A stretch of DNA of 64,000 nucleotides from Proteobacteria bacterium bin106 (GTDB lineage: Bacteria; Bdellovibrionota_B; Oligoflexia; Oligoflexales; Bin106): positions 1 to 64,000 of the forward strand of contig MPNI01000001.1 in NCBI GenBank assembly GCA_002238945.1. Direction: 5' to 3'. Shown one piece after another: positions 2,875 to 47,564 of the stretch. How positions within the stretch are numbered: the first letter of the stretch is position 1; every line of letters begins with the position of its first letter. Below the pieces are notes generated by a model. It was not told where the DNA came from and did no database searches. It was given only the letters and a program-made list of their open reading frames with translations. A program made the position numbers and the translations under genes.

Positions 2875-3852
2875 ATGACAAACACAACGCCCAAACAATA
2901 CATCATCTTTGGTGGTGCTTTTGATCCACCTCATTTAGGACATATGGACATTCTCCATGAACTCATCAAGCACTTTCCTCATGCATCTTGTATCCTCATA
3001 CCTAATTACATATCTCCTCATAAAACCATTCAGGCTTCCTTCACTCATCGTGTAGCCATGCTCAAACTAGCCCTTGCTGCCCGTGACCTATCCCAAAAAG
3101 TAACAGTGGATCATATAGAAAAAACCATCATTTCTCAAAGAGGTGCTCAGAACAGCCTTGAGCTACAGAACAGCCTTGAGCAAGAAAACAGCCCTGAGCT
3201 ACAGAACAGCCCTGAGCTACAGAACAGCCCTGAGCTACAGAACAGCCCTGAGCTACAGAACAGCCCTGAGCTACCAAGACAGCTACGAAACACCACCTGG
3301 CATACATTAAAGTCCCTCAAAAAAACATATGCCGCAAAGCTTATTTGGGTAATAGGCCAAGATCAGCTTATCACTCTCAAATCATGGTACCGAATAGATG
3401 ATATCTTTGGCCAAACTCAGTTTTGTGTACTCCCCCGAATACACACTTTCGATAATACCGCACCGTCTTATCCCTGTGATCATCACAATAGCTCTGAGGA
3501 CAATACAACCACTCTCCAACAAGACCTATTTCATACAATCACCCATCTCAATTACTGCTGGGATACACACCAAAAAATCATCTATAACCATCAACTGTGT
3601 CTTTATTGTTTTCACAAACAAACACCACACAAAGGACCACCCTTTAAACTACTGACTCTACAAGCAAAACCTGCAAGCATATCCAGTAGTCATCTACGCA
3701 AGCTCATTGCCAATCATTATCAAAACACCGCCCAGAAGAGTTCTATTGGCATAAAGAGTTCCAACAAGGATTATCCATGCCCTGATTTTGCCAGCACATT
3801 CCTCGAACAAAGTGTATGGCGTTACATTACTGATCATCACCTTTATATGTAG
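2875..3852 (+). CDS. nadD: nicotinate-nucleotide adenylyltransferase with a repeat insertion
   Basis: Adenylates nicotinate mononucleotide to deamido-NAD in NAD biosynthesis. The nucleotidyltransferase signature GGAFDPPHLGH is at residues 13-23. The later motifs WVIGQDQLITLKSWYR and ISSSHLRKLI correspond to the family's GxDxLxxxxxW and SSTxIR segments. The end, VWRYITDHHLY, matches the usual C-terminus. At 325 residues it is far longer than the usual 190-220. Part of the excess is an insertion at residues 92-133 of seven hexapeptide units (QNSPEL type), and part is a longer C-terminal half with extra loops. It is followed by rsfS, a widely conserved pairing. Catalytic residues look intact, so I expect an active enzyme with a surface loop expansion. 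Confidence 0.88.
   Translation: MTNTTPKQYIIFGGAFDPPHLGHMDILHELIKHFPHASCILIPNYISPHKTIQASFTHRVAMLKLALAARDLSQKVTVDHIEKTIISQRGAQNSLELQNSLEQENSPELQNSPELQNSPELQNSPELQNSPELPRQLRNTTWHTLKSLKKTYAAKLIWVIGQDQLITLKSWYRIDDIFGQTQFCVLPRIHTFDNTAPSYPCDHHNSSEDNTTTLQQDLFHTITHLNYCWDTHQKIIYNHQLCLYCFHKQTPHKGPPFKLLTLQAKPASISSSHLRKLIANHYQNTAQKSSIGIKSSNKDYPCPDFASTFLEQSVWRYITDHHLYM
3148..3273 (+). repeat. 18-bp in-frame tandem repeat inside nadD, seven units
   Basis: The unit is approximately CAGAACAGCCCTGAGCTA. The first three units carry substitutions, while the following ones are nearly identical. They encode xQNSLE or xQNSPE hexapeptides. The pattern suggests recent growth at the downstream end by slippage. Confidence 0.95.
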
Positions 3853-15612: not shown

Positions 15613-17853
15613 CTATGAACTACCTGAACCACAAAACGTATCGAACCTTATTTTTTGTGCTTCTGACCATGACGATGTAACACTGTCACTAGCGCTACAT
15701 ACATCACGGTCCATGTGGTTGAGGCCTGCAAGACACTGTGTTTCATCTTCAATGGTTTTTAGTCCAAAGAGTTTTTCTAAAGCGCGTCTATTCTCAAGAC
15801 GTCTGGCTACGGTATCTGTATTGATATGGATATAATACAGACACAATGGTCCAGCTACACGAGAGGTATCGGGAAAGTCCCAACCGCCAAAGTTAGAAAC
15901 AGGCTGATCACCAACAGTTTCATCTGTTACAGAGTTCTGCCATTGATCGCTCACGGTTTCTGAAGTACCAGCATCAAATGCCAGTAATAATTGTCCAACT
16001 TTAGAAAATCTGCCACCTTTGTTTTTCAAAAAAGCACTTAGAGGACTTTTTACATACGCCACCTCACGGAGAAGAGTCTCCTCACCATGCCTTCCATCTT
16101 CAAGCTTTAAGGTCATTATCTCATTGAGAATACGTTCAGCCTCATGACCATCATTAAACGGATGACCATCACCTGCAGGAACAGCATGATGTGTGATTTT
16201 ATGCAGCTTTGGCAATAATGCAGCATCCACATCATCTGTACTCGCAAGCAGGGTAGAGAATGTATTGGCACTTTTACAATCAGTAGTAGCCGGTATCTCT
16301 CCATCAGTACCGGCAGCAGCAGCAAGCACCTGTTTGTAACATACAATGACGTCATCCGTTTTTACACGCTTCAAATACTGATTACGATGAGGTGCCTCTC
16401 CAGTGCCAGATCTAGTGGAAGGGGTAAGATTGATAATAAGTCTTTTTATCCTCGGATCTCCTGGTGCTCCTATAAATTCTGGAAATCCTGGTTTTGAAGC
16501 AAAGCCTTTAGCTATCCGACATTCTATAGAGGGATCATGAAGTGTTACTTGAGCGTGCTCGGCTTCTGTTGCTGGTAATGGCGCACCACTTTTTATGACT
16601 TTTTTAAAAGCCACCTTTCCAGCATGATCATTGGCACCACATGCTAAACTGGTCTTATTGAGGGGCACATGAAAATCACCATGTGAAAAGAAAGTTCCTG
16701 TGGGTTCATAACGAGTCCTTGCTGGGTCCGTGCTGCTGTCGATGATTTTATTCATTTTTGTATACGCCATATCCTGCTCACAAGTAACTTTAAGCTCTCT
16801 TTGGGCATAAAAAGATTTGGTGGCATGTGCTGGGCTATAGTCAAGAAATGTCTGCAGTGATTCCATCGTGTCTACTGTAGAAGCAGTGGCAGCATCTGCA
16901 CCACTAAAATCACTAAACGCTTTGATTTTATGAGAAGACTTTTGAATATCCTCCCAAGAAGCTCTGATGAGTTTATCGATATGCTCGCCGGACTCTGCAG
17001 AGAAAGTTTCACGATAGATATACTTTGGTTTCACACGCTCATTTGCACTGGAACTTAAGACAGTATCAGCAAAGTCGCTTGTAAGAACAACAGCAGCACA
17101 GTTGTTGTTGATTTGATAGATGGTATTTTTAAGAGAAGCTAAAATACCAAATCCTTTTGTTTGACTAGTGTAATCAACCTCTTCATTGAGAATTTTATCT
17201 AGTTCTGTAATAAGTTCTGTTTGCAATGCCACATGGCCCATAACAAGTTTTTTCTTCTGATCCTCCTGGAAATGTTCCTCAAGAATATGATCAACCGCTT
17301 TTTTACACTGATATTCAAGCCAACCATTTATGCCTCGAGTACCGATGCTTTCATGACTAAAAGAAATGATCTTATCTTCCACAGCTTTAGTTTGAGTTTG
17401 ACATGAGTTAGAATCAGCCGATGACACGTTATAGATAAGTTCATCAGCAAGCCATGCCTTTTGTTCGGTAACCCGACAGCTAAGAGCAGCAAGAACTGTG
17501 GTAATCTCCCGACTTCTTTCAATACTTTGCTCTGATCTGCCAGTTATACAATGATTTTTAGCAATCATGTTGCGATAAGCATTGAGCTCGACTGAGTACG
17601 AATTGACCTCATCTTCATCAGGATTAGACAGTTGCTTTTCCACCTTAGGAAGAGTCTTTGATGACTCCTTGTCAGGATCAACTACTGCTATTGCATCGGC
17701 ATTCTTCTCCACTACCGCTTTAGGCGTAGAAGTGGCATCTTCCCCCTCAGCGCAGCCATGAAACATCATGAACCCACAGAACAAAAAGCAATAGCTTAGA
17801 GCGTGTCTCATCCATGATCGAGGTTTTAAGCACAAACATTGTAACAGGGACAT
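15613..17853 (-). CDS. tandem lipoprotein paralogue 3 of 3, unknown function
   Basis: Not recognised. I start at MSLLQCLCLKP (17853), which aligns with the starts of the two upstream paralogues. The longer frame would run back into the neighbouring gene. It has a signal sequence (MRHALSYCFLFCGFMMFHGC) with a probable lipid-modified Cys in a loose lipobox, then an acidic linker and about 700 residues with at least 12 Cys spread throughout. Conserved landmarks: ITTVLAALSCRVTEQKAWL, SLKNTIYQINNNCAAV, YIYRETFSAESGEHIDKLIR, FSHGDFHVPLNKTSLACGA, SPLSAFLKNKGGRFSKVGQL, FGGWDFPDTSRVAGPLCLYY and CLAGLNHMDRDVCS. The Cys pattern suggests disulfides outside the cytoplasm. It is the last gene of a head-to-tail trio and ends convergently with mreC. 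No enzyme signature was seen. Confidence 0.8.
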   Translation of the reverse strand: MSLLQCLCLKPRSWMRHALSYCFLFCGFMMFHGCAEGEDATSTPKAVVEKNADAIAVVDPDKESSKTLPKVEKQLSNPDEDEVNSYSVELNAYRNMIAKNHCITGRSEQSIERSREITTVLAALSCRVTEQKAWLADELIYNVSSADSNSCQTQTKAVEDKIISFSHESIGTRGINGWLEYQCKKAVDHILEEHFQEDQKKKLVMGHVALQTELITELDKILNEEVDYTSQTKGFGILASLKNTIYQINNNCAAVVLTSDFADTVLSSSANERVKPKYIYRETFSAESGEHIDKLIRASWEDIQKSSHKIKAFSDFSGADAATASTVDTMESLQTFLDYSPAHATKSFYAQRELKVTCEQDMAYTKMNKIIDSSTDPARTRYEPTGTFFSHGDFHVPLNKTSLACGANDHAGKVAFKKVIKSGAPLPATEAEHAQVTLHDPSIECRIAKGFASKPGFPEFIGAPGDPRIKRLIINLTPSTRSGTGEAPHRNQYLKRVKTDDVIVCYKQVLAAAAGTDGEIPATTDCKSANTFSTLLASTDDVDAALLPKLHKITHHAVPAGDGHPFNDGHEAERILNEIMTLKLEDGRHGEETLLREVAYVKSPLSAFLKNKGGRFSKVGQLLLAFDAGTSETVSDQWQNSVTDETVGDQPVSNFGGWDFPDTSRVAGPLCLYYIHINTDTVARRLENRRALEKLFGLKTIEDETQCLAGLNHMDRDVCSASDSVTSSWSEAQKIRFDTFCGSGSS

Positions 17854-17920
17854 ATCTTTTCTTTTCCTTTTCTTCTTATCTTTTCTATTATCTCTACTTT
17901 TTTGAATAACCTCATGTAAC

Positions 17921-20122
17921 TTAACCACCTGAGTCGCAAAACGTCTCGAACCTTGCTTTTTCTTCTTGTGACCATGACGATGTAACACTGTCACTAACGC
18001 TACATACATCACGGTCCATGTGGTTGAGGCCTGCAAGACATTGTGTTTCATCTTCAATGGTTTTTAGTCCAAAGAGTTTTTCTAAAGCACGTCTATTCTC
18101 AAGACGTCTGGCTGCGTTATTTGCATTGATATGGATATAATACAGACACAATGGCCCAGCTACACGAGAGGCATCGGGGAAGTCCCAACCGCCAAAGTTA
18201 GAAACAGGCTGACCATCACCAGTTTCATCTGTTACAGAGTTCTGCCATTGATCGCTCACGGTATCTGAAGTATCAGCATCAAATGCCAGTAATAATTGTC
18301 CAACTTTAGAAAATCTGCCACCTTTGTTTTTCAAAAAAGCACTTAGAGGACTTTTTACATGCGCCACCTCACGGAGAAGAGTCTCATCACCATGCCTTCC
18401 ATCTTCAAGCTTTAAGGTCATTATCTCATTGAGAATACGTTCAGCCTCATGACCATCATTGAACGGATGACCACTGCCCTCATCATCATGTTTTGTGACT
18501 ATATGCAAACTTGACAATGAAGCCTCCACATCATCAGCATCATAAAGCATGTCAGTAAATGTATCGTCACAGTCAGTAACGGGCTGCGGTGTCTCTCCAG
18601 CAGGAACATCATTAGCAAGGACTCGCTTGTGGCATACAATGGCATCATGAGCTTTGAGGCGACTCAGATAATCACCTCGAGCAGGAGGACTTTCTCCATC
18701 TTCTCCACCTCTAGCTCTCGTATCAGGAGTAAGGTTGATAATAAGTCTAGAATCTTCTGGAGTGCCTATAAAAGTTGCAAAGTCTGTCTTTGGAGCATAG
18801 CCTTTGGCTATGCGACATTCCACAGAGAGCCCTCCTTCTGAATCTGAAACTACTGATGATGATGGGGATTGCTTTTTTATAACTCTTTTAAAAACAGCCT
18901 TTCCAGCATGATCATTGGCACCACATGCTAAACCGGTCTTATTGAGAGGCACATGAAAATCACCATGTGAAAAGAAAGTTCCTGTGGGTTCATAACGAGT
19001 CCTTGCTGGATTTGTGCTGATGATTTTATTCATTTTTGTATACGCAATATCCTGCTCACAAGTAACTTTAAGCTCTCTTTGAGCATAAAAAGATTTGGTG
19101 GCATGTGCTGGGCTATAGTCAAGAAATGTCTGCAGTGATTCAATCGTGTCTACTGTGGATGCAGTGGCAGCATCTGCGCCACTAAAGTCACTAAATGCTT
19201 TGATCTTATAAGAAGACTTTTGGATATCCTCCCAAGAAGCTCTGATGAGTTTGTCGATATGCTCGCCTGACTCTGCAGAGAAAGTTTCACGATAGATATA
19301 CTTTAGTTTCACACGCTCATTTGCACTGGAACTTAAGACAGTATCAGCAAAGTCGCTTGTAAGAGCAACAGCAGCACAGTTGTTGTTGATTTGGTAGATG
19401 GTGTTTTTAAGAGAAGCTAAAATACCAAACCCTTTTGTTTGGCTTTTGTATGGAACTTTTTTATTGAGAATTTTATCTAATTCTTTTGTGACTTTTGCTT
19501 CTAATACAGCATGACCATCAACGAGTTTTTTCTTCTGAGCGCTCGTGAATTTTTCATCAAGAATATGATCAACCGCTTTTTTACACTGATACTCAAGCCA
19601 ACCATCTACCCCTCTAGCAACAACTTTTGCATCACTAAAAGACATGATATCTTCGTCAACTTCATCCGCTTGAGTTTGACATGACTCAGAAGCAGCCGAT
19701 GACGCATAAATGAGTTCATCAGCAAGCCAAGCTTTTTGTTCTGTAACCCGACAACTAAGAGCAGCAAGAACTGTGGAGATCTCCTGACTCCTTTTTTTAC
19801 TTTGCGCTGTTTGGCCACTGATACAGTGATCTTGAGCCATCTTGTCACGAAAAGCATTGAGCTTGGTTGAATACGTATTGATCACTTCAGTTTTAGGATT
19901 GGGGAGTTGCTTTTTTGCACTCGTAGGAGCCTTTGGCCCTTCCTTTTCAGGATCAACTACTGAAGTTGCATCGAGATCATGATCCACCGCCGGTTTCAAC
20001 TTAGAGGTGGCTGCTTCCTCCTCAGCGCAGCCATGAAACATCATGAGCCCACAGAACAAAAAGCTATAGCTCAGAGCGTGTCTGATCAATAATAGAGGTT
20101 TTAAGCACAAACATTTTAACAT
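17921..20122 (-). CDS. tandem lipoprotein paralogue 2 of 3, unknown function
   Basis: A 733-residue paralogue of its two neighbours. The signal sequence is LIRHALSYSFLFCGLMMFHGC with candidate lipid Cys32, and the same landmarks run throughout. Its C-terminal third (from about GHEAERILNEIMTLKLEDG) is nearly identical to the downstream copy. The middle variable part (after SLECRIAKG-type sequence) and the N-terminal 130 residues differ more. This alternation of identical and diverged blocks suggests gene conversion. The spacer to the next copy (67 bases) resembles the spacer before this gene. It is a probable operon member. Function unknown; a secreted or surface lipoprotein is the safest description. 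Confidence 0.8.
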   Translation of the reverse strand: MLKCLCLKPLLLIRHALSYSFLFCGLMMFHGCAEEEAATSKLKPAVDHDLDATSVVDPEKEGPKAPTSAKKQLPNPKTEVINTYSTKLNAFRDKMAQDHCISGQTAQSKKRSQEISTVLAALSCRVTEQKAWLADELIYASSAASESCQTQADEVDEDIMSFSDAKVVARGVDGWLEYQCKKAVDHILDEKFTSAQKKKLVDGHAVLEAKVTKELDKILNKKVPYKSQTKGFGILASLKNTIYQINNNCAAVALTSDFADTVLSSSANERVKLKYIYRETFSAESGEHIDKLIRASWEDIQKSSYKIKAFSDFSGADAATASTVDTIESLQTFLDYSPAHATKSFYAQRELKVTCEQDIAYTKMNKIISTNPARTRYEPTGTFFSHGDFHVPLNKTGLACGANDHAGKAVFKRVIKKQSPSSSVVSDSEGGLSVECRIAKGYAPKTDFATFIGTPEDSRLIINLTPDTRARGGEDGESPPARGDYLSRLKAHDAIVCHKRVLANDVPAGETPQPVTDCDDTFTDMLYDADDVEASLSSLHIVTKHDDEGSGHPFNDGHEAERILNEIMTLKLEDGRHGDETLLREVAHVKSPLSAFLKNKGGRFSKVGQLLLAFDADTSDTVSDQWQNSVTDETGDGQPVSNFGGWDFPDASRVAGPLCLYYIHINANNAARRLENRRALEKLFGLKTIEDETQCLAGLNHMDRDVCSVSDSVTSSWSQEEKARFETFCDSGG

Positions 20123-20231
20123 GGATATATCTTTTCTTTTCCTTTTCTTCTCTTCTTATCATTTCTATTGCTTCTACTTTTTTGGATAACCTCATTTTAA
20201 GTTTCATATTCCAGATAAATTAACAAAAACC

Positions 20232-22487
20232 TCATTCTGAGTCGCAAAACGTCTCGAACCTTGCTTTTTCTTCTTCTGACCATGACGATGTAACATCATC
20301 ACTAACGCTACATACATCACGGTCCATGTGGTTGAGGCCTGCAAGACATTGTGTTTCATCTTCAATGGGATCTAGTCCAAAGAGTTTTTCCAAAGCTCGT
20401 CTATTCTCAAGACGTCTGGCTGCGTTATTTGCATTGATATGGATATAATACAGACACAATGGCCCAGCTACACGAGAGGCATCGGGGAAGTCCCAACCTC
20501 CAAAGCTAGAAATAGAAACAGACTCTTCACCAACAGTTTCTGTTACAGACTTCTGCCATTGATCGCTCACGGTATCTGTATCTGTATCTGAAGTATAAGC
20601 ATCAAATGCCAATAATAATTGTCCAACCTTAGAAAATCTGCCACCTTCATTTTTTAAAAAAGCACTTAGAGGACTTTTTACATTCGCCTCATCACGAGGA
20701 GTCTCACCGGCATGCTCTCCATCTGTAAGCCTTGGGGTCATTATCTCATTGAGAATACGTTCAGCCTCATGACCATCATTGAGAACCCCACCCGTAGGAG
20801 CACTACCCAGTGTGGTTTTATGCAGCTTTGACAATAATGCAGCATCCACATCATCTGTACTCGCAAGCAGGGTAGAGAATGTATTGGCAGTTTGACAATC
20901 AGTAATGGCCGGTGGGGAGTCTCCAGTAGCAGAAGGAATGGGTTTGTGGCATACAATGGCGTCACGAGTTTTTTCACGTACCAAATAATTATCGCGATTC
21001 CTAGGTAGTGATTCACTGCTAGTTCTTGTGGGAGGTTCGGCAGTGGAAGGAGTAAGATTGATAATAAGTCTGGAAGCTACTGGAGTGCCTATAAAGTTTT
21101 TAAATTTTGGCGCCTTTGGAGCATAACCTTTGGCTATGCGACATTCTATAGTGGCATCATGAGGTGTTATAGCTTCCGGCGTTGTTGCTGCTACCGCTGG
21201 TACTATGCCTGGTTCTGTCGCTGCCGATGATGTCACACCTTTTATAACTCTTTTAAAATTAGCTTCTCCAGCATGACCCTTTGTACCACATGCTAAAGCA
21301 GTCTTATTAAGGGGCACATAAAAGTTGCCATGTGAAAAGAAAGTTCCTTTGGGTTCATGACTAGTAGTTGCTGGATCCGTGCTGGTGTTAGTGATTTTAT
21401 TCATTTTCTTATACGCAATATCCTGCTCACAACCCGTTACAAGTATTCTTTGGGCATAAAACTTTTTGGCAGTATGGGGGCTATAGTCAAGAAATGTCTG
21501 CAGTGATTCAACTGTATCTACTGTGGACTCCGTGGCAGCATCTGAGCCACTAAAGTCACTAAATGCTTTGATTTTATGAGAAGACTTTTGAATATCCTCC
21601 CAAGAAGCTCTGATAAGTTTATCAATACGCTTGTCTGACTCTTTAAAGAAAGTTTCACGATAGATGTATCTTGGTTTCACACGCTCATTTGCACTGGAAC
21701 TTGAGACAGTATCAGCAAAGTCACTTGTAAGAGCAACAGCAGCACAGTTGTTGTTAATTTGATAAACGGTGTTTTTAAGGGAAGCTAAAATGCCATATCT
21801 TTTTACTTGGCTCTCGTAAGGAATAGCTTCATTGAGAATTTTATCTAATTCTGTTAAAACCTTTGCTTCCAATTCATCATTGCCATTTTCTAATTTTGTC
21901 TTCTCAGCACCATTGAATTTTTCATCAAGAATATGATCAACTGCTTTTTTGCACTGAAACTCAAGCCAGCCTTCTATTCCGTCATCGTCGATTTTTTTAT
22001 GAGTAAAAGAAAGGACCTTGTCATCGATGGCTTTGGTTTGAGTTTGACATGAGTTAGTATCAGACGATGACACGTTATAGATAAGTTCATCGGTAAGCCA
22101 TTCTTTTTGTTCAGTAATCCGGCAGCTAAGAGCAGCAAGAACTGCGGTGATCTCCTGACTCCTTTCTTTACGTTTCGTTGTATCGCCACTGACACAGTGC
22201 TCTTCAGCAGTCTTATCACGAAAAGCATTGAGCTTGGTTGAGTATGTATTGATATCATCTTCAGAACTAGAGAGTTGCAATATCGATTTAGGAGGAGTCT
22301 GTGGTGACTCCTCTTTAGGATCAGTTACTACGGTTCCGTTGGCATTCTTCGCTTTAGGCTTAGAGATGGCTGCTTCATCATCAGCGCAGCCCTGAAACAT
22401 CATGAAACCACAGAACAAAAAGCTATAGCTCAGAGCGTGCCTGATCAATGATAGAGGCTTTATACACGAATATTTTAACATGGGCAT
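20232..22487 (-). CDS. tandem lipoprotein paralogue 1 of 3, unknown function
   Basis: First gene of the trio, 751 residues (749 if the second Met at 22481 is used). The signal sequence is LIRHALSYSFLFCGFMMFQGC with an acidic linker after the candidate lipid Cys. It is more diverged from the other two than they are from each other. It has an extra Ala/Thr/Pro-rich loop near residue 450 and an expanded Asp-Thr run (DTDTDTVSDQ) where the others have a single unit. The shared Cys and the final CLAGLNHMDRDVCS motif are kept. The promoter should lie in the 554-base gap upstream, which separates it from the divergent fadN. Confidence 0.8.
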   Translation of the reverse strand: MPMLKYSCIKPLSLIRHALSYSFLFCGFMMFQGCADDEAAISKPKAKNANGTVVTDPKEESPQTPPKSILQLSSSEDDINTYSTKLNAFRDKTAEEHCVSGDTTKRKERSQEITAVLAALSCRITEQKEWLTDELIYNVSSSDTNSCQTQTKAIDDKVLSFTHKKIDDDGIEGWLEFQCKKAVDHILDEKFNGAEKTKLENGNDELEAKVLTELDKILNEAIPYESQVKRYGILASLKNTVYQINNNCAAVALTSDFADTVSSSSANERVKPRYIYRETFFKESDKRIDKLIRASWEDIQKSSHKIKAFSDFSGSDAATESTVDTVESLQTFLDYSPHTAKKFYAQRILVTGCEQDIAYKKMNKITNTSTDPATTSHEPKGTFFSHGNFYVPLNKTALACGTKGHAGEANFKRVIKGVTSSAATEPGIVPAVAATTPEAITPHDATIECRIAKGYAPKAPKFKNFIGTPVASRLIINLTPSTAEPPTRTSSESLPRNRDNYLVREKTRDAIVCHKPIPSATGDSPPAITDCQTANTFSTLLASTDDVDAALLSKLHKTTLGSAPTGGVLNDGHEAERILNEIMTPRLTDGEHAGETPRDEANVKSPLSAFLKNEGGRFSKVGQLLLAFDAYTSDTDTDTVSDQWQKSVTETVGEESVSISSFGGWDFPDASRVAGPLCLYYIHINANNAARRLENRRALEKLFGLDPIEDETQCLAGLNHMDRDVCSVSDDVTSSWSEEEKARFETFCDSE
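20573..20590 (-). repeat. 6-bp microsatellite in lipoprotein paralogue 1
   Basis: TATCTG occurs three times. The other two paralogues have one unit or none at the same place, which shows the expansion directly. Confidence 0.9.
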
Positions 22488-34405: not shown

Positions 34406-35395
34406 CTATCTTTGATATGTTCTTTGTTGTTTAGAATTATTATGACGATTTCTTTTTTTGGGAGGGTTAGGGTCTCTGTTGCTAGATTCTTTAGGAGGAG
34501 TAGAGGCTCTATGAGTTGCCTCGCTGTTAGAGTCGCCTTGGTCGTCTTTAGAACCATAAGTAGGAACTTCCATAGACATAAATAACTCATCAATGTTACA
34601 AGCTTTCCCTACACATCCATAGATCTTTTGGATACGTTCAATATCCCCTCGAGAAACACGGCGGTTGGCAAGTCCCTCTCCAATAAGGAGAGAAGGATTC
34701 ATGATGGAGTAAGGATCTACAGCTGCAGGAATATGTCCCAACCCGAGAAGATGTCCCAACTCATGAAGTGCAAGAGATTCCATATCCACCACAGATCGTG
34801 AATCCGTTTCCATGGTGGCAAAACTATCAGCAATATTGTAGTTCTGATAATTGAAACGAATATCAGCCTTAGCTATGACCGATTTTCTTTTATCATGAAC
34901 TGGCCCCACGTTATCCCATATGGTAGTGGCAATAACTTGGTCTCCTTTACCTGTCTTGCCCCATACATCATCGCGATAATGGCCATTTATGCTATCTTCC
35001 AACGATGAATAAAGATCTTTGAAATCATCACCTGTTCTTGGGTCATCTCCGGTGAGTTGAAACAGCGGCTTTCCCACTGCGGTTTCCCAGGTTTTGATGG
35101 CATTCAAAATACCTTGTTTTTGCTGCTTCGTCATTTCTTGGGAAAATTGGTACGGTATAGGCAACTGTTCTCCCCAACCGCGAGGAGTATGAATACCAAA
35201 CATGGGCGATGATTCATCTAGTCCTTCCCCCGTAAAACTATGAGTACCTACATCACCTCCTATTTGAGCAGCAGGCCCACCATAATCGTTATCTAAAGAC
35301 ACCTGATACATCTTGGCACCACAGGCTACGAAGTTCATAAAGGCTGCAGCTATGGCAAATACTAAAGAAGAATACTTTACAATAGGCCTATTCAT
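34406..35395 (-). CDS. matrixin-like zinc metalloprotease lipoprotein
   Basis: Probable secreted or surface peptidase. I start at MNRPIVKYSS (35395; AGGAT 7 bases upstream). The lipobox is FVAC with Cys25. The zinc site HELGHLLGLGH is at 211-221, followed by the Met-turn SIMNPS (Met232). This is the metzincin pattern of family M10. Upstream, KADIRFNYQNYN fits the structural core that precedes the zinc helix. A disordered polar tail follows residue 270 (Ser/Asn/Pro/Lys-rich). No pro-domain Cys switch was recognised, so latency may be controlled otherwise. Substrate unknown. Confidence 0.85.
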   Translation of the reverse strand: MNRPIVKYSSLVFAIAAAFMNFVACGAKMYQVSLDNDYGGPAAQIGGDVGTHSFTGEGLDESSPMFGIHTPRGWGEQLPIPYQFSQEMTKQQKQGILNAIKTWETAVGKPLFQLTGDDPRTGDDFKDLYSSLEDSINGHYRDDVWGKTGKGDQVIATTIWDNVGPVHDKRKSVIAKADIRFNYQNYNIADSFATMETDSRSVVDMESLALHELGHLLGLGHIPAAVDPYSIMNPSLLIGEGLANRRVSRGDIERIQKIYGCVGKACNIDELFMSMEVPTYGSKDDQGDSNSEATHRASTPPKESSNRDPNPPKKRNRHNNSKQQRTYQR

Positions 35396-36369
35396 GATTG
35401 ATCCTAAAACAAAAGCTAACACGTAACATCACCGCTTCAAATATGCAGGTGTAGCTTCACTCCTCCTTAGCTCAGCCACACCACTTACTACTTACGGCAT
35501 TTTTTAAGACAACTTTTAGAGAAATGTATATGCGCACCCTTAATTATAACAATCATGACAAGTGCATCAGAAAGGTATGAGCGAGTCTATGACGGCATAC
35601 GCTTAGTTATCACAGCTAAAAACATCATCTGATGATGTGTTACGGAACATATCGTTATTGTTACAAGCTCAAAATAACGTGCCAAAAATATGTCACATAA
35701 AGGGTCCGTCTGATGAGTGAGATTGCTCGCAGACATCAAAGTCTCATTTGATCTCAATGACAAAGGATGCTATACTTACGGATTATAGTAGAGGTTATAG
35801 CTCTACTGTGAAAATAAGCAGATCGCGAGTAACGAAATACTGAACGAACAATAGTGAATTGAAGGAAAGAAGCTCATTATAGAAAACAGTAAACAAAGAT
35901 AAAGGTTGATAAAGAATAAAAAAACGCAATAAACGCTTGATGGAATAAAAAATACATGATTGCTATAATGACGAATCAGATAGTTAGCCACAGATAGTTA
36001 GCCACAGATAGTTAGGCAAGAACTAACCGACTGACTAACTGATCAGTAAGAAGCTAAGAAACAAAAAATGATAAAATAGAAGCAGCAAATAGAAGCAGCA
36101 AGGAAGAAACAAAAAAACAGGATAGAACTTGGGAAACATCTTGACATACCATCTGACAACATACAGTTTCACACCAACTGACAAGCAGTCCATCCTGCTG
36201 AACAATGCTTCTATGAGGTTAACTAAAAGCTCTCTTGAGCATCTAAGCATTCCGAATACGCATACTCACATGTTAGATGTTCCATCCAATCCACAAGCCG
36301 GTAAGCAAAAAAACCCTAAGAAAAGAAACTTGTGAAATAGAATTATGAATTTATAAAAAAGGTCATAAT
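35396..36369. other. long gene-free region with a 14-bp tandem repeat
   Basis: Nearly 1 kb between divergent genes without a supportable frame. At 35977-36018 a 14-bp unit (CAGATAGTTAGCCA) occurs three times, followed by CTAACT words in opposite orientation. The stretch 35820-36110 is A-rich on the plus strand. A short hairpin with CTGATGAG near 35711 was inspected as a ribozyme and rejected. AAAAAAGG before 36370 is a possible ribosome site for the next gene. Confidence 0.5.
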
Positions 36370-38722: not shown

Positions 38723-40327
38723 TTATGTAAGCATCTCATGACGCCAGCCAATTACATTTTGTTCTTCTTTACCAAAGGCAAGAGCAATAAGATGAATAGG
38801 CTTTTTAAGCTTTTTATAAGACTCACCATAACGTCGAGTTTTGATTTGTTTCATCGCTGAATCAAGCATCCTCTCACGTTCCTTTTCGCTTTTCGCCATC
38901 TTCAATTCAAAAATAAAAACTTGATCTGCATAAGTCACCGCAAGATCACACCGGCCCATTATAGTAGACCTTTCTGCCTTAATATCAAGGTTTGTAGAAG
39001 AAAGACCTGCATATAAAAATCTTGAATAACAATATTCATAGTAAAAATAAGATTTGCTGTCTTCTACCGGATTCCACTGATAAGGCACTCCTTCCAAAGC
39101 AGCGCAGAGATGGCCAACAAACTCCTCAAATTCGTTATTTTTCAGATACTTCGCTAGCATATTTTGGCAGTCATCATCGATTCGGTCTTGAGTAATATAC
39201 TCCCAAAAACCACTATCGAAACTTTCACGCACTTCAAGATTAGGATAATCTAAGCGATAGTATGTGCGATTATTTTTTCGAATTTTGTCTTGGATGGCAA
39301 GAAATCCTGACTGAAAGTACAGAGATTTTACTTTAACATTTTCTACATTAGATTTAATAAGATCCTGACGTGACACAAGACAATTTTCTAGTTGTAGCGG
39401 TCGAACTTTCTTTTGTATAAGATAAAAATAGAGATAGCGAGGCACTCCATCTTCAAGCCACCAATATTCAAATTCTTTGTTGGAAAAAAGTTTAAGAATC
39501 CCATGGGGGTTATAAACTTTTTCCTCTCCAAGCCAACTATAGCCGTTATACCATTTGCGAATTTCATCACGATCAAAATTCTTGATCTCATCTTCAAAAA
39601 CTGTATCTAATTCTTTATCTGTATATCCACAAATAGATGAATATTCCGGCTTTAAGCTGATATCAATAAGATGATTAAAACCTGTAAATACAGTCGACTT
39701 AGAAAACATGGTGATGCCAGTAACAAAGTGAAATCGAATGAACTTATGAGATGCTTTAAAAATACTGTAAAACCCTCTAAGAGTGGATTGATTTTTTTTA
39801 CTTATCTCTTTGTCTTCTAGAACATCCAAGAGAGGTTTATCATACTCGTCAATTAAAACAACTACTTCTGTCTTAGAGTTGATAGTATAGATATGTTCGA
39901 GAATATTTTGCATACGCTCAGCTTCGGAGAGCTTAAGCTCTCCAGAAACTACGATGTTATATTTTTTCTCTACACGATCTAAGAAGGCAAAAATCCGCCT
40001 TTCTAAATCATTTTCGTTAGTGTATTCTCTGCCACCAAAATCAATGATAAGTACGGGATACTTTTGAGACCAATCCCACTTATCATAGATATAAAGTCCT
40101 TTAAATAACTCCTTTTTTCCTTCGAAAAGACATTGCAAAGTGTTTAAAAAAAGAGTTTTGCCAAAACGACGGGGACGAGATAAAAAATAATAGCGTCCTT
40201 TTGTAATTGTAATGAGCTGGTGTAAAAACTGAGTTTTGTCTACATAGTAGCAGCCGTCCTTTCTAAGTGTTTCAAAATTTTGCTTTCCTAAAGGTAAAGG
40301 TAATTTCATAGTATCTTTTTTCTCCAT
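38723..40327 (-). CDS. AAA-ATPase-like protein with C-terminal PD-(D/E)XK nuclease domain
   Basis: A member of the common AAA-ATPase_like plus PD-(D/E)XK family (DUF1703 type), often multicopy and laterally moved. The opening LPLGKQNFETLRKDGCYYVD is the usual family start. A Walker A-like RPRRFGKT is at 51-58 and Walker B VVLIDEYD at 156-163. The nuclease core is GRCDLAV...VFIFELKM, with Asp461, Glu474 and Lys476. At 534 residues it is full length and intact. IS debris on both sides (38430-38620 and 40594-40743) supports acquisition by transfer. Its biological role is not established; defence or element control are guesses. Confidence 0.88.
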   Translation of the reverse strand: MEKKDTMKLPLPLGKQNFETLRKDGCYYVDKTQFLHQLITITKGRYYFLSRPRRFGKTLFLNTLQCLFEGKKELFKGLYIYDKWDWSQKYPVLIIDFGGREYTNENDLERRIFAFLDRVEKKYNIVVSGELKLSEAERMQNILEHIYTINSKTEVVVLIDEYDKPLLDVLEDKEISKKNQSTLRGFYSIFKASHKFIRFHFVTGITMFSKSTVFTGFNHLIDISLKPEYSSICGYTDKELDTVFEDEIKNFDRDEIRKWYNGYSWLGEEKVYNPHGILKLFSNKEFEYWWLEDGVPRYLYFYLIQKKVRPLQLENCLVSRQDLIKSNVENVKVKSLYFQSGFLAIQDKIRKNNRTYYRLDYPNLEVRESFDSGFWEYITQDRIDDDCQNMLAKYLKNNEFEEFVGHLCAALEGVPYQWNPVEDSKSYFYYEYCYSRFLYAGLSSTNLDIKAERSTIMGRCDLAVTYADQVFIFELKMAKSEKERERMLDSAMKQIKTRRYGESYKKLKKPIHLIALAFGKEEQNVIGWRHEMLT

Positions 40328-40844: not shown

Positions 40845-42617
40845 ATGACTTTCCATAGCTTACGCCTTACGACTCTACTTACAAGTCTCAGCATCATCGT
40901 TTTAGTCTTGAAACTTTCTTCATGTCGGAGCTTTTCTGCTTTAGAGCAGAAGCAACCCACATCAAGTCTTCAAAGTGCTTATGATAACACCTATTCATTG
41001 GTGCTACAAAAACACGGCACAGACCTGCGCTTTGTAACCTGTTTAGGCACACCACAAAGTCTTAATGCCTCTTCATGTGTTCCTGCTCTAAAGTTCCAGG
41101 ATGACAGTGTGATTAACTATAACTTCCTGCCACAAAGCACTCTCAAACCCGAAGATACGGAACAAATTGAAACTCTAAAAGTAAAGATTGCCGAAGAATA
41201 TCGCAATGAACATGGAAAACTTCCCAAAAACTTCCACATTCTCACCGCTGGAATAGGTAGTGCTGCACTGGGAGGATGGATTGCTAAAGGGCAAAAAGCT
41301 GTTGCTACACATCAAAGTGCTCATATCCAAAAAGTTACCCAATTACTCAAACAAGACAAAGTTTTGTTGGCCAAACTCACATTTGCTGACCTCTTTCATC
41401 ATGATGCTTTCACAGGCAATGAACACCTAGAATTGCTCGATATGTTTGATGATCCAAAACGTCTCAATCAACTCAAAACACAGACATCTCAAGCTTGGAA
41501 TCTTCTCAAGAAAAGAGCCCGATTATTAGTTGGCACAAACAGAGATGTTAGCGGTATCATTAAAGAAATGACACAGTTCCATGATGATGTCACTTTCTGG
41601 CAAATTATCGACATGAGTGAACTTTCCGCAGATTACTACAATGTCATGGATGACATCACCCCTCCGAGCATCAAGCAAAGACTTGTGAATATGTCAAATG
41701 GTGCAAGAACGGCAAAAGACCAGATACGCTATAATGTTAAAGCTCGACAAAATAAAACACTCAAACATCTTGCTGCCACAGGAGGCTACGATAAGGCCGT
41801 TAAGATGTGGGAGAAGGTCAGTGATTGGATGGTGGATACTTCTGACAGCATAAGCTATGAAAAAGATTTACTTCCATTTAAAATGGAAAGTAGCAGCCTC
41901 CAAAGACTTAAAGTACAACGCGATAGATTACACCAACTAGCTTTGGATAAAATCCGAAGCGGAGAGAATGTCCAATCCCTGCTTGGAAGCAAAGGATCAC
42001 TACGTGAGGTTATCCGTAAACTTGGCACACATTTAGACACAGAGTCTAGCAGGATGTTTGCTGCACTTGAAACACAAGCTCTAAATAAAGGACTTCTTAA
42101 CTTCCCTACCACAGCTGTTAGAACAGACCGTGCAGCTCGTAGCTTACTCATCAATACAGCCACATCGGTAGCTCCTCAACAAAACACATCGTTGGTATCA
42201 AAATCCAGTAAATATATTTCTTCTAAAGGCCCCTTTTCTATGACAAAATTTCTCGGCTGGGGAGTGTCGTTGATTGGTGGAGCTATGGTTCTTTTTGCTA
42301 TTGTGGATAGTGCTGAGTCTAAAACGATAGTGAATCTAGAATCGCTTAACAAAGAAACCCAAAATTCCTCTGTGCCCTTTATTCCTGTAAGTGTTTATGA
42401 AAGTTATTGGCCTTCACTCAACACTCTTGATACCAATGTCACTTTAAAGGTACCATCTATTCCTTCAGTACTCAAAACCCTAGCCTTGCATGCAAGCGGT
42501 GGCAATGTGGTTCTAGCTACAGATATGTCTTATTGCCTACCTGCTCTTCAAACAGGCTCAGCTAATACTAATGATAGCCATCCATCTTCATGCTACCAAG
42601 TGACAGCCATAGAATAG
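40845..42617 (+). CDS. large membrane lipoprotein, close paralogue of 9424-11325
   Basis: Function unknown. The lipobox is LSSC with Cys27. The family module follows: TYSLVLQKHGTDLRFVTC with Cys66, then NASSC with Cys78. Next come EYRNEHGKLPKNFHILTAG, the Gly-rich GIGSAALGGWIAKG, and a helical region with GNEHLELLDMFDDP and MTQFHDDVTFWQ. One transmembrane segment lies near 469-487 (FLGWGVSLIGGAMVLFAIV). The C-terminal domain has VPFIPVSVYESYWPSLNTLD, VLKTLALHASGGN and two late Cys (SYCLP, SCYQV). It lacks the Lys/Ala-rich coiled stretch of its paralogue, hence 590 instead of 633 residues. The next gene, another family member, starts 126 bases downstream. Confidence 0.8.
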   Translation: MTFHSLRLTTLLTSLSIIVLVLKLSSCRSFSALEQKQPTSSLQSAYDNTYSLVLQKHGTDLRFVTCLGTPQSLNASSCVPALKFQDDSVINYNFLPQSTLKPEDTEQIETLKVKIAEEYRNEHGKLPKNFHILTAGIGSAALGGWIAKGQKAVATHQSAHIQKVTQLLKQDKVLLAKLTFADLFHHDAFTGNEHLELLDMFDDPKRLNQLKTQTSQAWNLLKKRARLLVGTNRDVSGIIKEMTQFHDDVTFWQIIDMSELSADYYNVMDDITPPSIKQRLVNMSNGARTAKDQIRYNVKARQNKTLKHLAATGGYDKAVKMWEKVSDWMVDTSDSISYEKDLLPFKMESSSLQRLKVQRDRLHQLALDKIRSGENVQSLLGSKGSLREVIRKLGTHLDTESSRMFAALETQALNKGLLNFPTTAVRTDRAARSLLINTATSVAPQQNTSLVSKSSKYISSKGPFSMTKFLGWGVSLIGGAMVLFAIVDSAESKTIVNLESLNKETQNSSVPFIPVSVYESYWPSLNTLDTNVTLKVPSIPSVLKTLALHASGGNVVLATDMSYCLPALQTGSANTNDSHPSSCYQVTAIE

Positions 42618-42743
42618 TCATAAAAGACTTACTACATAAACAAGAAATGATTCAAAACACCATGACATTTTCACCACAGCAACCACTGCATATATTTGAT
42701 AACAGCATGAACCATCCACAACAACATCATAAAGGAATGATCC

Positions 42744-43898
42744 ATGCATCCCCATTGCGGAGCTGTCGTGTTATGGGTACTGATATCTCTTATGGCGTCA
42801 TGGAGTTGCAAACTCTCACCAAGCCGTAATGAAGCAAATCTTAGTGCTGTTATAAGTGACACATATGTTCTTTCTCTCATAGATGCCTATCATTCTGATA
42901 ACCACTATGTTTTCTATATCTGTCCTAAACGCTCGGGTGTCAATTTTCAACAAAGCTTTCATCACGGGCAACTACAAAACCTCGGATGTGGTCCTGCTTT
43001 TATAGATGTTTTTGGCAGAGAAGAGCCCTATTATATTCCTAAGAACTTTATCACATCACAGAGATATCACTCATCTCCATGGGGAATATCAGCTCAACAA
43101 ACCCAAGAGCTCGAAACATCAGCTCCGTTACATATCATGCCCTTTTCCAGTGTTCATGCACAGATTATGTCTATTCGTTCAGGAATCATGACCTTTGGCT
43201 GGGTAATTTCAGCTCAAGGACGTTTAGCTGAAAGAATCGCTCAAAAAGGCTTAAAAAGAGGTATGGCTAGTGCTCAAGATGTGGGTAAAAGTGCCTATAT
43301 CACTATTCAAGGAAAACCCCATCAAAATAGCGACATACATGAAGCCTGCATAAATACCTTAAAAACCATCGCCACCACCACTAACCAACAAAGCACATCA
43401 GCTTTTGATGATGTTACAGAACAACTCATAGCAAGCCTTGATTCAGCCATTGAAACAAACTGCAAACACCTGAAAATATCCAGCAGAATCAGCTCTACAC
43501 CTGAGTCTACTTTAGTGGAAGCTTACTCCTATATTTTTACAACCAATACTTATAAAGTAAGTACTCTCAAAACCCCTATGCCTGAACTCTTAGAGACCAT
43601 CGCTGCTCTACTGTACAAACTCAATGCCTTTGAAGATCCCTTTGAAACCATCACAGACCCACAACTGCTCTATCCCATCAAACCCCAAATTTGCTTACCC
43701 ATTCACGCTCAAACCATCACTTCAGCATTCTGCTTACCATCAGAAATCTCATGGTCTTCAGCTAGTGCTCAACGTCTAGCACAAAAATGGTCCTGGAATA
43801 GCCAGCTAGGAAGATTCACCAGAACATTCCAAAGCCCTTCACCTCTTTCTGAAACCATTTATCATCGCAGATACAACTCCGCATCACAACGCCCATAA
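42744..43898 (+). CDS. family member with the N-terminal two-Cys module, lipoprotein
   Basis: Function unknown. AAAGGA lies 7 bases before ATG. The signal sequence ends in SWSC (candidate lipid Cys22). The module is DTYVLSLIDAYHSDNHYVFYIC (Cys60) and then GCGPAF with Cys82. A Gly-containing hydrophobic stretch (SGIMTFGWVISAQG) matches the Gly-rich segment of the larger paralogues. A helical region with two further Cys and a polar C-terminus follow. It has no C-terminal transmembrane domain. It probably forms a transcription unit with the gene before it. Confidence 0.75.
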   Translation: MHPHCGAVVLWVLISLMASWSCKLSPSRNEANLSAVISDTYVLSLIDAYHSDNHYVFYICPKRSGVNFQQSFHHGQLQNLGCGPAFIDVFGREEPYYIPKNFITSQRYHSSPWGISAQQTQELETSAPLHIMPFSSVHAQIMSIRSGIMTFGWVISAQGRLAERIAQKGLKRGMASAQDVGKSAYITIQGKPHQNSDIHEACINTLKTIATTTNQQSTSAFDDVTEQLIASLDSAIETNCKHLKISSRISSTPESTLVEAYSYIFTTNTYKVSTLKTPMPELLETIAALLYKLNAFEDPFETITDPQLLYPIKPQICLPIHAQTITSAFCLPSEISWSSASAQRLAQKWSWNSQLGRFTRTFQSPSPLSETIYHRRYNSASQRP

Positions 43899-43996
43899 TG
43901 GATATAACATCAAAGGGGAGCTGCTTCTTGGTTTGGTGATAGTGAGAGAACATAGCTCTCTTTTACTATCTAGGATAAGAAGGATGCGGAAAGAAG

Positions 43997-44444
43997 AGCT
44001 TTGAGTTTGCAAGTTTAGCTGTAAGCTGGATTCTGTCTTCACTTTTATACCCATGTTTACACATAGCATAAAAGTGGAGGCTATCATTTATCTTGGAGTA
44101 CAGTTACCTGCACCCTCATGCGATCTACCCAAGGCCACACCTGGCCGGTGCTTATTCTTTAGAATATGCCTTTGTTTGATCTTGCTTCAGATAGGGTTTA
44201 CCGAGCCAATATGTCACCATATCGCTGGTGAGCTCTTACCTCACCGTTTCAGCCTTGCCGGCTTATACACAAAATGTATTGCTTAGGCGGTTTACTTTCT
44301 GTTGCACTTTCCGTCGAGTTACCTCGCCTGGCCTTTAGCCAGTATCCTGCCATATGAAGTCCAGACTTTCCTCCTAACATATCTCAACAACTGTGTTCTT
44401 GAAAAGTTAAGCGATAGCCCGCTACACTTCACAAACTCAAAAGC
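43997..44444 (-). ncRNA. rnpB: RNase P RNA, bacterial class A
   Basis: Catalytic RNA that matures tRNA 5' ends. On the minus strand the P4 5' strand region GGAGGAAAGTCTGGACTTC is at 44356-44374. The conserved 3' part GACAGAATCCAGCTTAC is at 44021-44037. In between lie GGCGAGGTAACTCGACGG-like and GGTAAACCC segments. P1 is formed by TTTGAGTTTG (44432-44441) and CAAACTCAAA (44000-44009). The end points are set from P1 and may be a few bases off. Confidence 0.93.
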
Positions 44445-44661
44445 CCTTCTTTTAACTAAGCCCGTAAGCCATAAAGTCAAGAGATAATAGTTACTAAATA
44501 ATAAAACCAGACCGTTATAAAAACAGCAAAACCTATAACTATAGCATTTCAAAGTTCACTCAAAACAAACTCTTCTACCAACAAATAAAACAATAGCTAT
44601 TCTATTATAAGAGCCAAAACATAACAGAATAAGAAGCTCTCATAAAATCCAGTTGCAACAT
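44445..44661. other. gene-free stretch upstream of rnpB
   Basis: AT-rich; it should contain the rnpB promoter (minus strand). I see no gene. Confidence 0.4.
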
Positions 44662-44704
44662 AAAAAATCTTCCTTACAGATGGTGACATCATCTGTAAGG
44701 AAGA
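44662..44704 (-). terminator. rho-independent terminator downstream of the 44916-45716 gene
   Basis: TCTTCCTTACAGATG and its exact complement form a 15-bp stem with a 7-base loop. On the minus strand it is followed by TTTTTT. Confidence 0.85.
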
Positions 44705-44915
44705 CCGATAAGTACTACTAGATTGTGTGTATGTCAAAATACAGCCACACTGGGCTAGGACTTTACTATAAAGCTATATGTGATCATATTTAACAATGTG
44801 ATTCAATCAATATTTTGGCAAAGTCGTACACATTTTTATTTTGCAATGACCATGAAGTGAGTTGGGTGTTAATCCAAGCACATCACCGGCCACTTATTTA
44901 AGGAAACATCACCCA

Positions 44916-45716
44916 TCAGAAAGACCCCAACATGAAGATAGCACTCATGAAGGCAGCACCTATAATAATATACATAGCCCAAGTAAAAGAAGACATCATC
45001 TTACGAACAGCAGGAGAATCAGAAGACGTGCTGCTACCAAGTTGTCCCAGTGATGAAAACTCAGATTTTGCTAAATCTGAATCTACATAACTATCTGACT
45101 TCATTAGGTTTCCAAGGCCGCGGACGGCAAGAACTAATGAATCCACAGTCATTTCTCCTGAAATCATTGTTGCTAGCAATGCAAATGCATCACGAGAGGC
45201 CTTATTACCTCCACCTCCACCTCCAACTACCATTGATGCCAAATCAAGTCCCGTAACAACTCCCAAAAAGGCACTCTTTATCAAGCTTTGACTAGCTTGT
45301 TTGAGATCCATATCACTTATATCTGATTCATACAGTTGATTAAGTTGATCCAACCTTTGTGATAAAAAAGCTTGGCTCTCTTTATTTTGCAGATTTTGCA
45401 GAAACGTTTTGCTAACAGTAAGTGGTTTACCATCTGCTACTTTAAATGGACTTTCGCAATTGTCTACATCCACAGATGAAGCGTTATCGAGTTCTTGGGT
45501 TTCTAAATCACTTATAGAACATGAGTAAAAAGATACAGATGAAGAATCACTTTCTGCCTCTGCTATAACAAGAGCATAAGAGCCATTATGATCAGAAACT
45601 ATCTGAGGTAAGTCTAAATCGCTTGATTTCATCTCCGTACTAGCATAGCTGGTAGTTGTGGCAGTACAAAAAACAATAACTCCTAGCATATAGAGCCATT
45701 TTTCACAACTTCTCAT
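44916..45716 (-). CDS. short exported family member ending in a transmembrane helix
   Basis: Function unknown. Signal peptide (LYMLGVIVFCTATTTSYAS). The family module is GSYALVIAEAESDSSSVSFYSC (Cys66) and then VDNC with Cys87. A helical region and a loop of six Gly (VVGGGGGG) follow. The final 23 residues form a transmembrane segment (AMYIIIGAAFMSAIFMLG), exactly where the two large paralogues continue into a C-terminal domain, so this copy is truncated or minimal. Downstream, HFMVIAK followed by a stop (44838-44861) resembles the last residues of 9424-11325, perhaps a relic. An AAGGGG ribosome site supports the start. Confidence 0.75.
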   Translation of the reverse strand: MRSCEKWLYMLGVIVFCTATTTSYASTEMKSSDLDLPQIVSDHNGSYALVIAEAESDSSSVSFYSCSISDLETQELDNASSVDVDNCESPFKVADGKPLTVSKTFLQNLQNKESQAFLSQRLDQLNQLYESDISDMDLKQASQSLIKSAFLGVVTGLDLASMVVGGGGGGNKASRDAFALLATMISGEMTVDSLVLAVRGLGNLMKSDSYVDSDLAKSEFSSLGQLGSSTSSDSPAVRKMMSSFTWAMYIIIGAAFMSAIFMLGSF

Positions 45717-46085
45717 GATGGTTTCCCCTTAATGTTGTTTCAAAGTGTTATTACAAAGAACTCCCTCTGCAACCTTATAAACAAGTAGCGTAGCGATCCT
45801 ATAATCTCTCCTACCCTTTGTCAACAACTGAAACATAAAACAGAAATTTCGCGAAGTTCATGATAATCCGGCTTTAACTACTTGATAATGAAAGAATAGG
45901 GAAATATTTAGGTTACCTTGATCATTCTTAATCTTTTTAATAGATTAACATTGAACTCACCTTTTTTATGTGTTAGCTTTAGCGAACGTTTGCATATGTC
46001 ACCTAAAAGTGCACTTATCTTTTTACCGCCTAGTTCATAAATCTCATAATCATTTTTTCTCACTTTTCTCAAGGAGTTTGCTTTT
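45717..46085. other. divergent promoter region between two family members
   Basis: It holds no gene. It separates the minus-strand 44916-45716 gene from the plus-strand 46086-47564 gene, so both promoters should lie here. AAGGAG at about 46071 serves the right-hand gene. Confidence 0.5.
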
Positions 46086-47564
46086 ATGTATTGGTCCTAC
46101 CAAAAACACATAGTCACAACACTTTCCCTACTATGGCTTTGTATGTTCTCTTCGGCAGTACTCGCTAACAAAAAAAAGGACACAATTGAAAATTACTATC
46201 TTCTCAAAGACACCAATTCAACATTTACTCTAAGCTCTTGTGCTACAAGTAAGCTATCTGACAATCAACAAGTTGGAAGTGATTCCTGCTTTGCTGAAGC
46301 ATTCATCCCTCAAAATGAGGAGCTCTTAGCTCAACATTTCACAGAAGCTTATCATTCTGCAGCTGTCCTACCTGTTACAGGAGCGGCTCTTCTCGGTACT
46401 GCTGGTTCCTGGGGTAAGCATCTACATTGGCTACCCAAAAATTGGCTACCCAAAACGACACTAACACAGTGGGCTCTTTCTCTTGCTGGAGGAGCTGTGG
46501 TTGTGGGTTATCTAGCAGAAAAATTTGCTGCAAGCACAGAGGTTTTTCTTTCATCAAACACAGCTGGCAACAATGAACATGAAAGTCTGTCTACATTTAG
46601 CAGAGAATCGCTGCTAAGCTCAACATCACCTGACCCAAAACCCGTACCAGTGATGAATATAGACACAGAAACGCATTACACAGAAAGCAATAAAACACTC
46701 CTTTTTGAAAGCATGGACAATAAGGCTTTTGAAGCTTTATTGAACGCACGAAACATCAGAACTAAAGACTATCAAAGAGTCAAAGATGCTGTTATCACAA
46801 AGGCTATAAAGCTTCTTCATGTTCCTGGAATCTTCCCAGGTGATCATAAAAGAAATCTCTATAATGAGTATGTCCAAGAAAATAGTTCAGCTCTAGCAAC
46901 GGTAGAGCAAGGGCGACTAGAAACACAGGCAGCCAAAGCACAATCCCTTATCAGTGCTTCGTATCATTTCCTCGCTGATGTTTTTAAACTCATAAAATCT
47001 GGAACACTGAGACGATACCAAAGCCTCAATCTTGTTAAAGATGGATATGCTCTCTATACACGCCCATTATTGGTAAATATTGCTACACAGCTACCAAGTA
47101 TATTCGAAAAAACATGTGCCTCGTCACAGTTTAAAGACCTTCGTTTCAGGGAATGTTTCAAACTCTACAAGTACATTCTTAGCCTTAGCGAACTTAGCGA
47201 ATCCATAACGAAGGATAACACCCCCAATTATTCTCGATTAGAAGTCATGCACTCTATGATAGCATCGAAAATAGAAGCACGGAGAGGTTTCTACGCCGAT
47301 GATACCAAAAGACTTCTGTTTGCGGTTAGTAAATTTCATGACGATATGATGTGGTTCTCTTTTAGGATCTCCAGTGAAGATCAACTCAGTAGAGTGAGCC
47401 GAACAAGAATACTAGAGAGCTTGGTCACTGACCCCTCACAGTATCTCAATAACCACCCACAGGGGCCTTTCGATGCCGGAATATTCTATACTAACTCCTT
47501 CCTCGAAAGACATATCAGTACTTGCATAAAAAATAATCAAGTGCTCATGTTTGATTGCAGATAA
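46086..47564 (+). CDS. exported family member with the two-Cys module and a helical region
   Basis: Function unknown. Signal peptide (LSLLWLCMFSSAVLANKK). The module is YYLLKDTNSTFTLSSC (Cys52) and then SDSC with Cys68, followed by AEAF. Two hydrophobic Gly/Ala segments follow (LPVTGAALLGTAG, ALSLAGGAVVVGYLAEKF). Then comes a polar linker and a helical region of about 280 residues with KFHDDMMWFSFRIS, which matches QFHDDVTFWQI of the 40845 protein. It ends with two Cys (STCIKNNQVLMFDC). A direct repeat LPKNWLPK sits near residue 118. It lacks the C-terminal transmembrane domain of the large members. Confidence 0.75.
   Translation: MYWSYQKHIVTTLSLLWLCMFSSAVLANKKKDTIENYYLLKDTNSTFTLSSCATSKLSDNQQVGSDSCFAEAFIPQNEELLAQHFTEAYHSAAVLPVTGAALLGTAGSWGKHLHWLPKNWLPKTTLTQWALSLAGGAVVVGYLAEKFAASTEVFLSSNTAGNNEHESLSTFSRESLLSSTSPDPKPVPVMNIDTETHYTESNKTLLFESMDNKAFEALLNARNIRTKDYQRVKDAVITKAIKLLHVPGIFPGDHKRNLYNEYVQENSSALATVEQGRLETQAAKAQSLISASYHFLADVFKLIKSGTLRRYQSLNLVKDGYALYTRPLLVNIATQLPSIFEKTCASSQFKDLRFRECFKLYKYILSLSELSESITKDNTPNYSRLEVMHSMIASKIEARRGFYADDTKRLLFAVSKFHDDMMWFSFRISSEDQLSRVSRTRILESLVTDPSQYLNNHPQGPFDAGIFYTNSFLERHISTCIKNNQVLMFDCR

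Follow-up and report, generated by a model that had tools for sequence, protein, structure and literature searches.

A lineage-restricted family of exported, predicted lipid-anchored proteins sharing a two-Cys N-terminal module in an Oligoflexales genome

We analyzed the first 64,000 nucleotides of contig MPNI01000001.1 of Proteobacteria bacterium bin106 (hereafter the window), where an initial annotation had singled out five genes as one undescribed family of secreted proteins opening with a common two-Cys module. The genes, their coordinates and all five Cys pairs (66/78, 60/82, 66/87, 52/68 and 68/80) were correctly identified, the 68/80 numbering of the last gene presuming the ATG at 11325. 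Each gene is named here by the first coordinate of its span, and the features of the locus are as follows.

9424-11325, minus strand: 9424 gene, subfamily A, 633 aa counted from the ATG at 11325
9436-9651, minus strand: 9424 gene, C-terminal module (YCLP...C)
11032-11202, minus strand: 9424 gene, N-terminal two-Cys module (Cys68/80), profile match
40845-42617, plus strand: 40845 gene, subfamily A, 590 aa, with lipobox, N-terminal module, two hydrophobic segments and C-terminal module
40923-40925, plus strand: 40845 gene, Cys27 of lipobox LSSC, predicted to be lipidated, from a lipobox scan
40962-41132, plus strand: 40845 gene, N-terminal two-Cys module (Cys66/Cys78), profile match, a beta-hairpin in the isolated-module model
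41232-41285, plus strand: 40845 gene, first hydrophobic segment (aa 130-147), predicted TM1, weak by hydropathy
42252-42305, plus strand: 40845 gene, second hydrophobic segment (aa 470-487), predicted TM2 by hydropathy
42378-42605, plus strand: 40845 gene, C-terminal module, Cys564/Cys583 (YCLP...C)
42744-43898, plus strand: 42744 gene, 384 aa, with near-lipobox ASWSC (Cys22), Cys60/82 module and C-terminal tail with Cys317/330
42834-43043, plus strand: 42744 gene, N-terminal two-Cys module, profile match
44916-45716, minus strand: 44916 gene, subfamily B, 266 aa, with N-terminal module and three hydrophobic segments
45396-45605, minus strand: 44916 gene, N-terminal two-Cys module (Cys66/Cys87), profile match
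46086-47564, plus strand: 46086 gene, placed in a separate family C, with a signal peptide of the non-lipid type and two Cys pairs, Cys52/68 close to the N-terminus and Cys480/491 at the C-terminal end

The 40845 and 9424 genes are full-length paralogues with about 50% identity, and the bin106 genome holds four further full-length subfamily A paralogues of this pair. It also holds about 17 paralogues of 44916, a few weak ones of 42744, and nine copies of family C in all, including 46086. The genes were described as clustered, which is true only loosely, as the copies are scattered over many contigs. When all five proteins are aligned over their full length, just six columns remain invariant, including those of Y-x-L and of the two Cys.

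Several other genes of the window and the genomes drew our attention. On the minus strand, 15613-22487 carries a tandem trio of paralogous, lipoprotein-like genes (733-814 aa, 66-73% identical to one another); the two searched against Pfam have no family there. Three more tandem lipoproteins (L097:556-4212) share a ...MLWLIDNSGSM... segment resembling a vWA domain, and a gene in the congener (L254:6339-7463) looks related to them. The minus strand of the window further encodes an exported M10 matrixin-type metallopeptidase (34406-35422) and an AAA-ATPase_like plus PDDEXK_9 protein (38723-40327), of which a similar-looking copy lies on contig C82 (L104:13927-15489). On the plus strand, a protein that is NadD-like by eye (2875-3852) carries about six in-frame ELQNSP-type repeats inserted mid-protein.

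We compared the N-terminal modules using profiles from which signal peptides were excluded, scoring each gene with a profile built without its own subfamily. In this leave-one-family-out test, 9424 scores 39.0 bits, 40845 37.1, 44916 30.6 and 42744 26.2, far above the best shuffles at 4.5-7.3 bits, so that the claim of a shared module holds for these four genes. The top-scoring "controls" (genes in L226, L227 and L234) turned out to be members absent from the member list. Profile-profile comparison by hhalign links the subfamily modules to one another, with E-values of 4.5e-8 between A and B, 5e-11 between A and D, and 1.2e-11 between B and D. Cross-family hmmsearch gives mostly 13-40 bits for models A and D on the other subfamilies and for model B on D, against best shuffles of 6-13 bits, and only 3-9 bits for model B on family A. 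The module spans 65 residues with a mean column identity of 23-25%. Taken together, these comparisons make it very probable that the genes 40845, 9424, 42744 and 44916 form a single undescribed family; its proteins are exported and predicted to be membrane proteins, and almost all are predicted lipoproteins. When the final module profile is used, the highest scores outside the family, 7.6-13.6 bits, belong to further exported proteins that might themselves be remote members, and a background at about 5-6 bits comes next. Three short lipoproteins of about 260-275 aa near members (L225:388-1215, L225:3101-3898 and L223:6478-7263) reach 9-14 bits against the module profile; they too could be more distant relatives.

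The fifth gene, 46086, behaves differently. It scores 9.7 bits (E 0.04) in the leave-one-family-out test, where the best shuffle reaches 8.1; its family matches the module by hhalign at 30% probability with a score of 19.9, the highest of 200 column shuffles being 18.2. It could be a diverged branch of the same family without a lipid anchor, since both the gene and its family profile rise above every shuffle and since Y-x-L, F-x-x-x-C and a second Cys follow one another in the same order, with hydrophobic segments and a terminal Cys pair after them. However, the hhalign probability is low, the final profile gives 46086 only 5 bits and its paralogues lower scores still, and the C-terminus of family C has no match to the C-terminal module of A, B, D or E by hhalign (probability 0.1-0.6%). 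We therefore consider a single five-gene family a reasonable but minority reading, and 46086 probably lies outside the four-gene family. Since its membership is unproven, the proposal of the initial annotation stands as to an undescribed, exported and diversified family limited to one lineage, which agrees with the missing library matches, the restricted range and the species-wise radiations described below, and falls short as to all five genes forming one family.

The motif F-x-[DN]-D-[VM]-x-[FW] had also been put forward as a shared element. The strings are present, but their conservation fails: the motif is retained only in 40845, 9424 and their nearest paralogue, the three remaining A paralogues having lost it, while the F-x-[DN]-D string of the 46086 family sits elsewhere, at the end of the protein. 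Because of this loss and this different relative position, we treat the resemblance as coincidence and rejected it as a family mark.

A simple pattern scan finds a lipobox ahead of the module in 79 of 87 members longer than 150 aa, with a median of 12 residues in between, compared to 69 of 368 other ORFs. Of the eight members left over, several show a near-miss such as WSC. Among the window genes, 40845 and 9424 have a lipobox and 42744 has the near-miss WSC; in 44916 an ordinary signal peptide takes its place, and the lipobox is missing from the closest paralogue of 44916 as well. The frequency of the lipobox indicates that nearly all family members, with 44916 among the exceptions, are probable lipoproteins whose N-terminal Cys is predicted to be lipidated. 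In E. coli, an Asp right after the lipid Cys is an inner-membrane retention signal. Here, Asp directly follows the lipid Cys in only 2 of the 79.

Most members close with a second conserved module at the C-terminus, usually [YH]C[LV]P followed by a second Cys. It is present in 40845 and 9424, the CLP...C tail of 42744 aligns poorly to it, and 44916 lacks a C-terminal Cys module. By hhalign, this module connects A (E-value 1.4e-7), D (1.1e-7) and B (6.5e-5) to set E, the members remaining outside subfamilies A, B and D. The link runs through set E, since direct pairwise comparisons of A, B and D by hhalign stay below significance. In the second taxonomic family, the region is recognizable without its Cys pair, at 25.9 against a shuffle maximum of 10.3.

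By hydropathy, 56 of 64 members carry two hydrophobic segments in the region that separates the two modules. What had been described as a Gly-rich hydrophobic segment is the first of these and corresponds to the predicted TM1; the majority of members also possess the second. By the same measure the predicted TM1 is weak in 40845, 9424 and 42744, and the hydrophobic segments of 42744 are weak altogether. The stretch separating the two segments can be as short as a few residues or as long as about 600 and is poor in Cys, with 0.11 per 100 aa versus 1.70 in the C-terminal tail. The inner flanks are more positive than the outer ones in 41 of the 56 (Wilcoxon p 3e-5, a test that lacks independence because the sequences are related). 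From the flanking charges and the near-absence of Cys between the segments, together with hydropathy, we predict a lipid-anchored protein with two TM segments and both modules outside, a topology we consider likely. The N-terminal Cys would be lipidated at the outer face of the cytoplasmic membrane and the N-terminal module held by a disulfide staple outside the cytoplasm; TM1 would then enter, the middle part would be cytoplasmic, TM2 would exit, and the C-terminal module would sit outside beside the N-terminal one. That both the family and this topology are correct is also, jointly, a rather likely proposition. For nearly all members, a predicted lipid anchor and predicted membrane spans thus replace the description "secreted". 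An 801-aa lipoprotein on contig C82 of genome G000 (L220:5200-7605) carries an S41 peptidase domain, then the two-Cys module, hydrophobic segments and an FYCVP...C tail; this fusion is suggestive as to the role of the family but isolated.

An AlphaFold2 model of full-length 40845, based on an alignment of four window sequences, is poor (mean pLDDT 47.6) and shows a beta-stranded module and helical residues 159-414. The isolated 40845 module is modeled better, at a mean of 68 with block means of 70-82 over residues 11-60, as a beta-hairpin in which the first Cys ends the second strand and the second Cys comes after a short turn. This placement suits a putative disulfide staple.

Searches of Pfam, NCBIfam, PHROGs and PADLOC return no family match above cut-off except Peptidase_S41 in one member, where it is confined to the extra N-terminal part of L220:5200-7605. 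We found no sequence or fold relative of the family in the PDB, Foldseek of the module giving no relative and no E below 2.6, and the literature we searched holds nothing on such a family. Within the libraries and literature searched, neither the family nor its two-ended layout seems to have been described.

Whole-genome profile searches find the module at about 42 places in the bin106 genome, at 30 in its congener, and at 19 and 11 in a pair of genomes belonging to another family of the order. Because a few rows are gene halves or short fragments, the number of genes is somewhat smaller than the number of places. One further match (L275:1172-1999) comes from another family of the class, in a different order; this single distant protein has the family layout by eye, with lipobox, module, hydrophobic stretch and tail. 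The module was not found in the other 53 of 58 phylum genomes (profile search, E <= 0.001) or in 30 genomes of other phyla (E <= 0.01), the latter being weak evidence taken alone. As judged from profile matches, the range is limited to two families and one outlier.

In a tree of the module, copies group by species, requiring 6 changes versus 22.6 when shuffled, although the tree is built on few columns and has many open forks. This grouping far above chance indicates that each lineage expanded its own set. The dN/dS of paralogue pairs is 0.26-0.63 over whole genes, indicating that most copies are maintained under purifying selection. On contig C1 of genome G004, the module places at 1356377 and 2706145 share score and frame length, as do those at 2001604 and 2209747 (frames of 727 aa and 100 aa, respectively), which suggests recent duplications or assembly repeats. 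ORFs that are transposase-like by eye lie near gene clusters of subfamily B and family C (L086:14356-14781, L088:5156-6928 and L092:4188-5858). A conserved linkage of module genes to PEPCK and the cell-shape genes (mreB/mreC, PBP2), hinted at by the window and by genomes G004 and G012, was rejected: in the congener no module gene adjoins PEPCK or shares the mreBC contig, and in G004 MreC is located elsewhere.

We found no domain or partner, and no conserved neighborhood around the family copies, that would hint at a function. A role in the envelope is plausible, judging from export signals and topology. The outside modules might bind an envelope partner or ligand, with the variable middle linking that binding to the cytoplasm; the copies would make up a set of diversified receptors or scaffolds in the envelope, duplicating and diverging in each lineage. 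Such a set fits best with the conserved ends and interchangeable middle, the lipid anchoring, the likely membrane passage and the lineage-specific repertoires, and we propose it tentatively. The full version, a receptor family restricted to one small phylum whose lipid-anchored, membrane-spanning members would carry an interchangeable cytoplasmic domain between two disulfide modules on the outside, with dozens of copies built up separately in each lineage, is more speculative still. If true, the receptor reading would amount to a new architecture for transmembrane signaling or envelope scaffolding.

Alternatively, these proteins may be outer-membrane surface lipoproteins, adhesin-like or antigen-like, whose variation serves contact with a host, a prey organism or a neighbor; their hydrophobic segments would then be amphipathic, or buried within a soluble fold, and would not span a membrane. 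The many diverged lipoprotein copies per lineage and the rarity of Asp after the lipid Cys agree with this. However, the two hydrophobic segments of most members, their positive-inside pattern and the Cys-poor middle point to membrane passage, and the whole-gene dN/dS values show no sign of diversifying selection, making a surface role unlikely. Less likely again is an immunity or self-protection repertoire against envelope-acting toxins of neighbors. The repertoire-like expansion, together with fragmented genes and transposase-like ORFs in the vicinity of certain subfamily B copies, would be in keeping with such a function, but there is no PADLOC match, no toxin gene adjoins the inspected copies, the two queries tried have no phage or plasmid match, and long cytoplasmic middles are unexpected in simple immunity proteins. 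A phage or plasmid origin was rejected, with tblastn giving nothing for 40845 in plasmids or for 44916 in phages and no PHROGs family matching. Finally, a mere chance likeness of the module among exported proteins, to which its low identity might point, is highly improbable; in four of the five genes the profile evidence already contradicts it, as leave-one-out scores far exceed shuffles with signal peptides excluded and the profile recovers the same architecture in other genomes while finding none in the 53 phylum genomes and the 30 from other phyla.

The family brings together about a hundred previously uncategorized proteins from four genomes under one testable topology. Some 40 exported copies are a large investment for a 2.6 Mb genome, and so high a copy number is probably a reflection of the way these bacteria deal with their environment. 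With the profile and the two-ended layout, annotators can recognize proteins missed by every library searched.

The closest parallels in layout and in expansion come from two known systems. The CyoA-type cytochrome oxidase subunit II is a lipid-anchored protein with a TM hairpin. Like it, members of the present family are predicted to have a lipidated N-terminus outside, two TM helices and a C-terminal domain outside. Unlike it, they have no copper or oxidase domain, show no sequence relation to it in Pfam or the PDB, occur in many copies, and carry a long variable stretch between the helices and Cys modules at both ends. As a kind, an expanded lineage-specific lipoprotein family is already known. 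The paralogous lipoprotein families of Borrelia, for example PFam143 (PMC8877311), likewise consist of many diverged copies in one lineage; they differ in belonging to another phylum and in showing no sequence relation in Pfam, whereas the family described here carries hydrophobic segments and conserved Cys modules.
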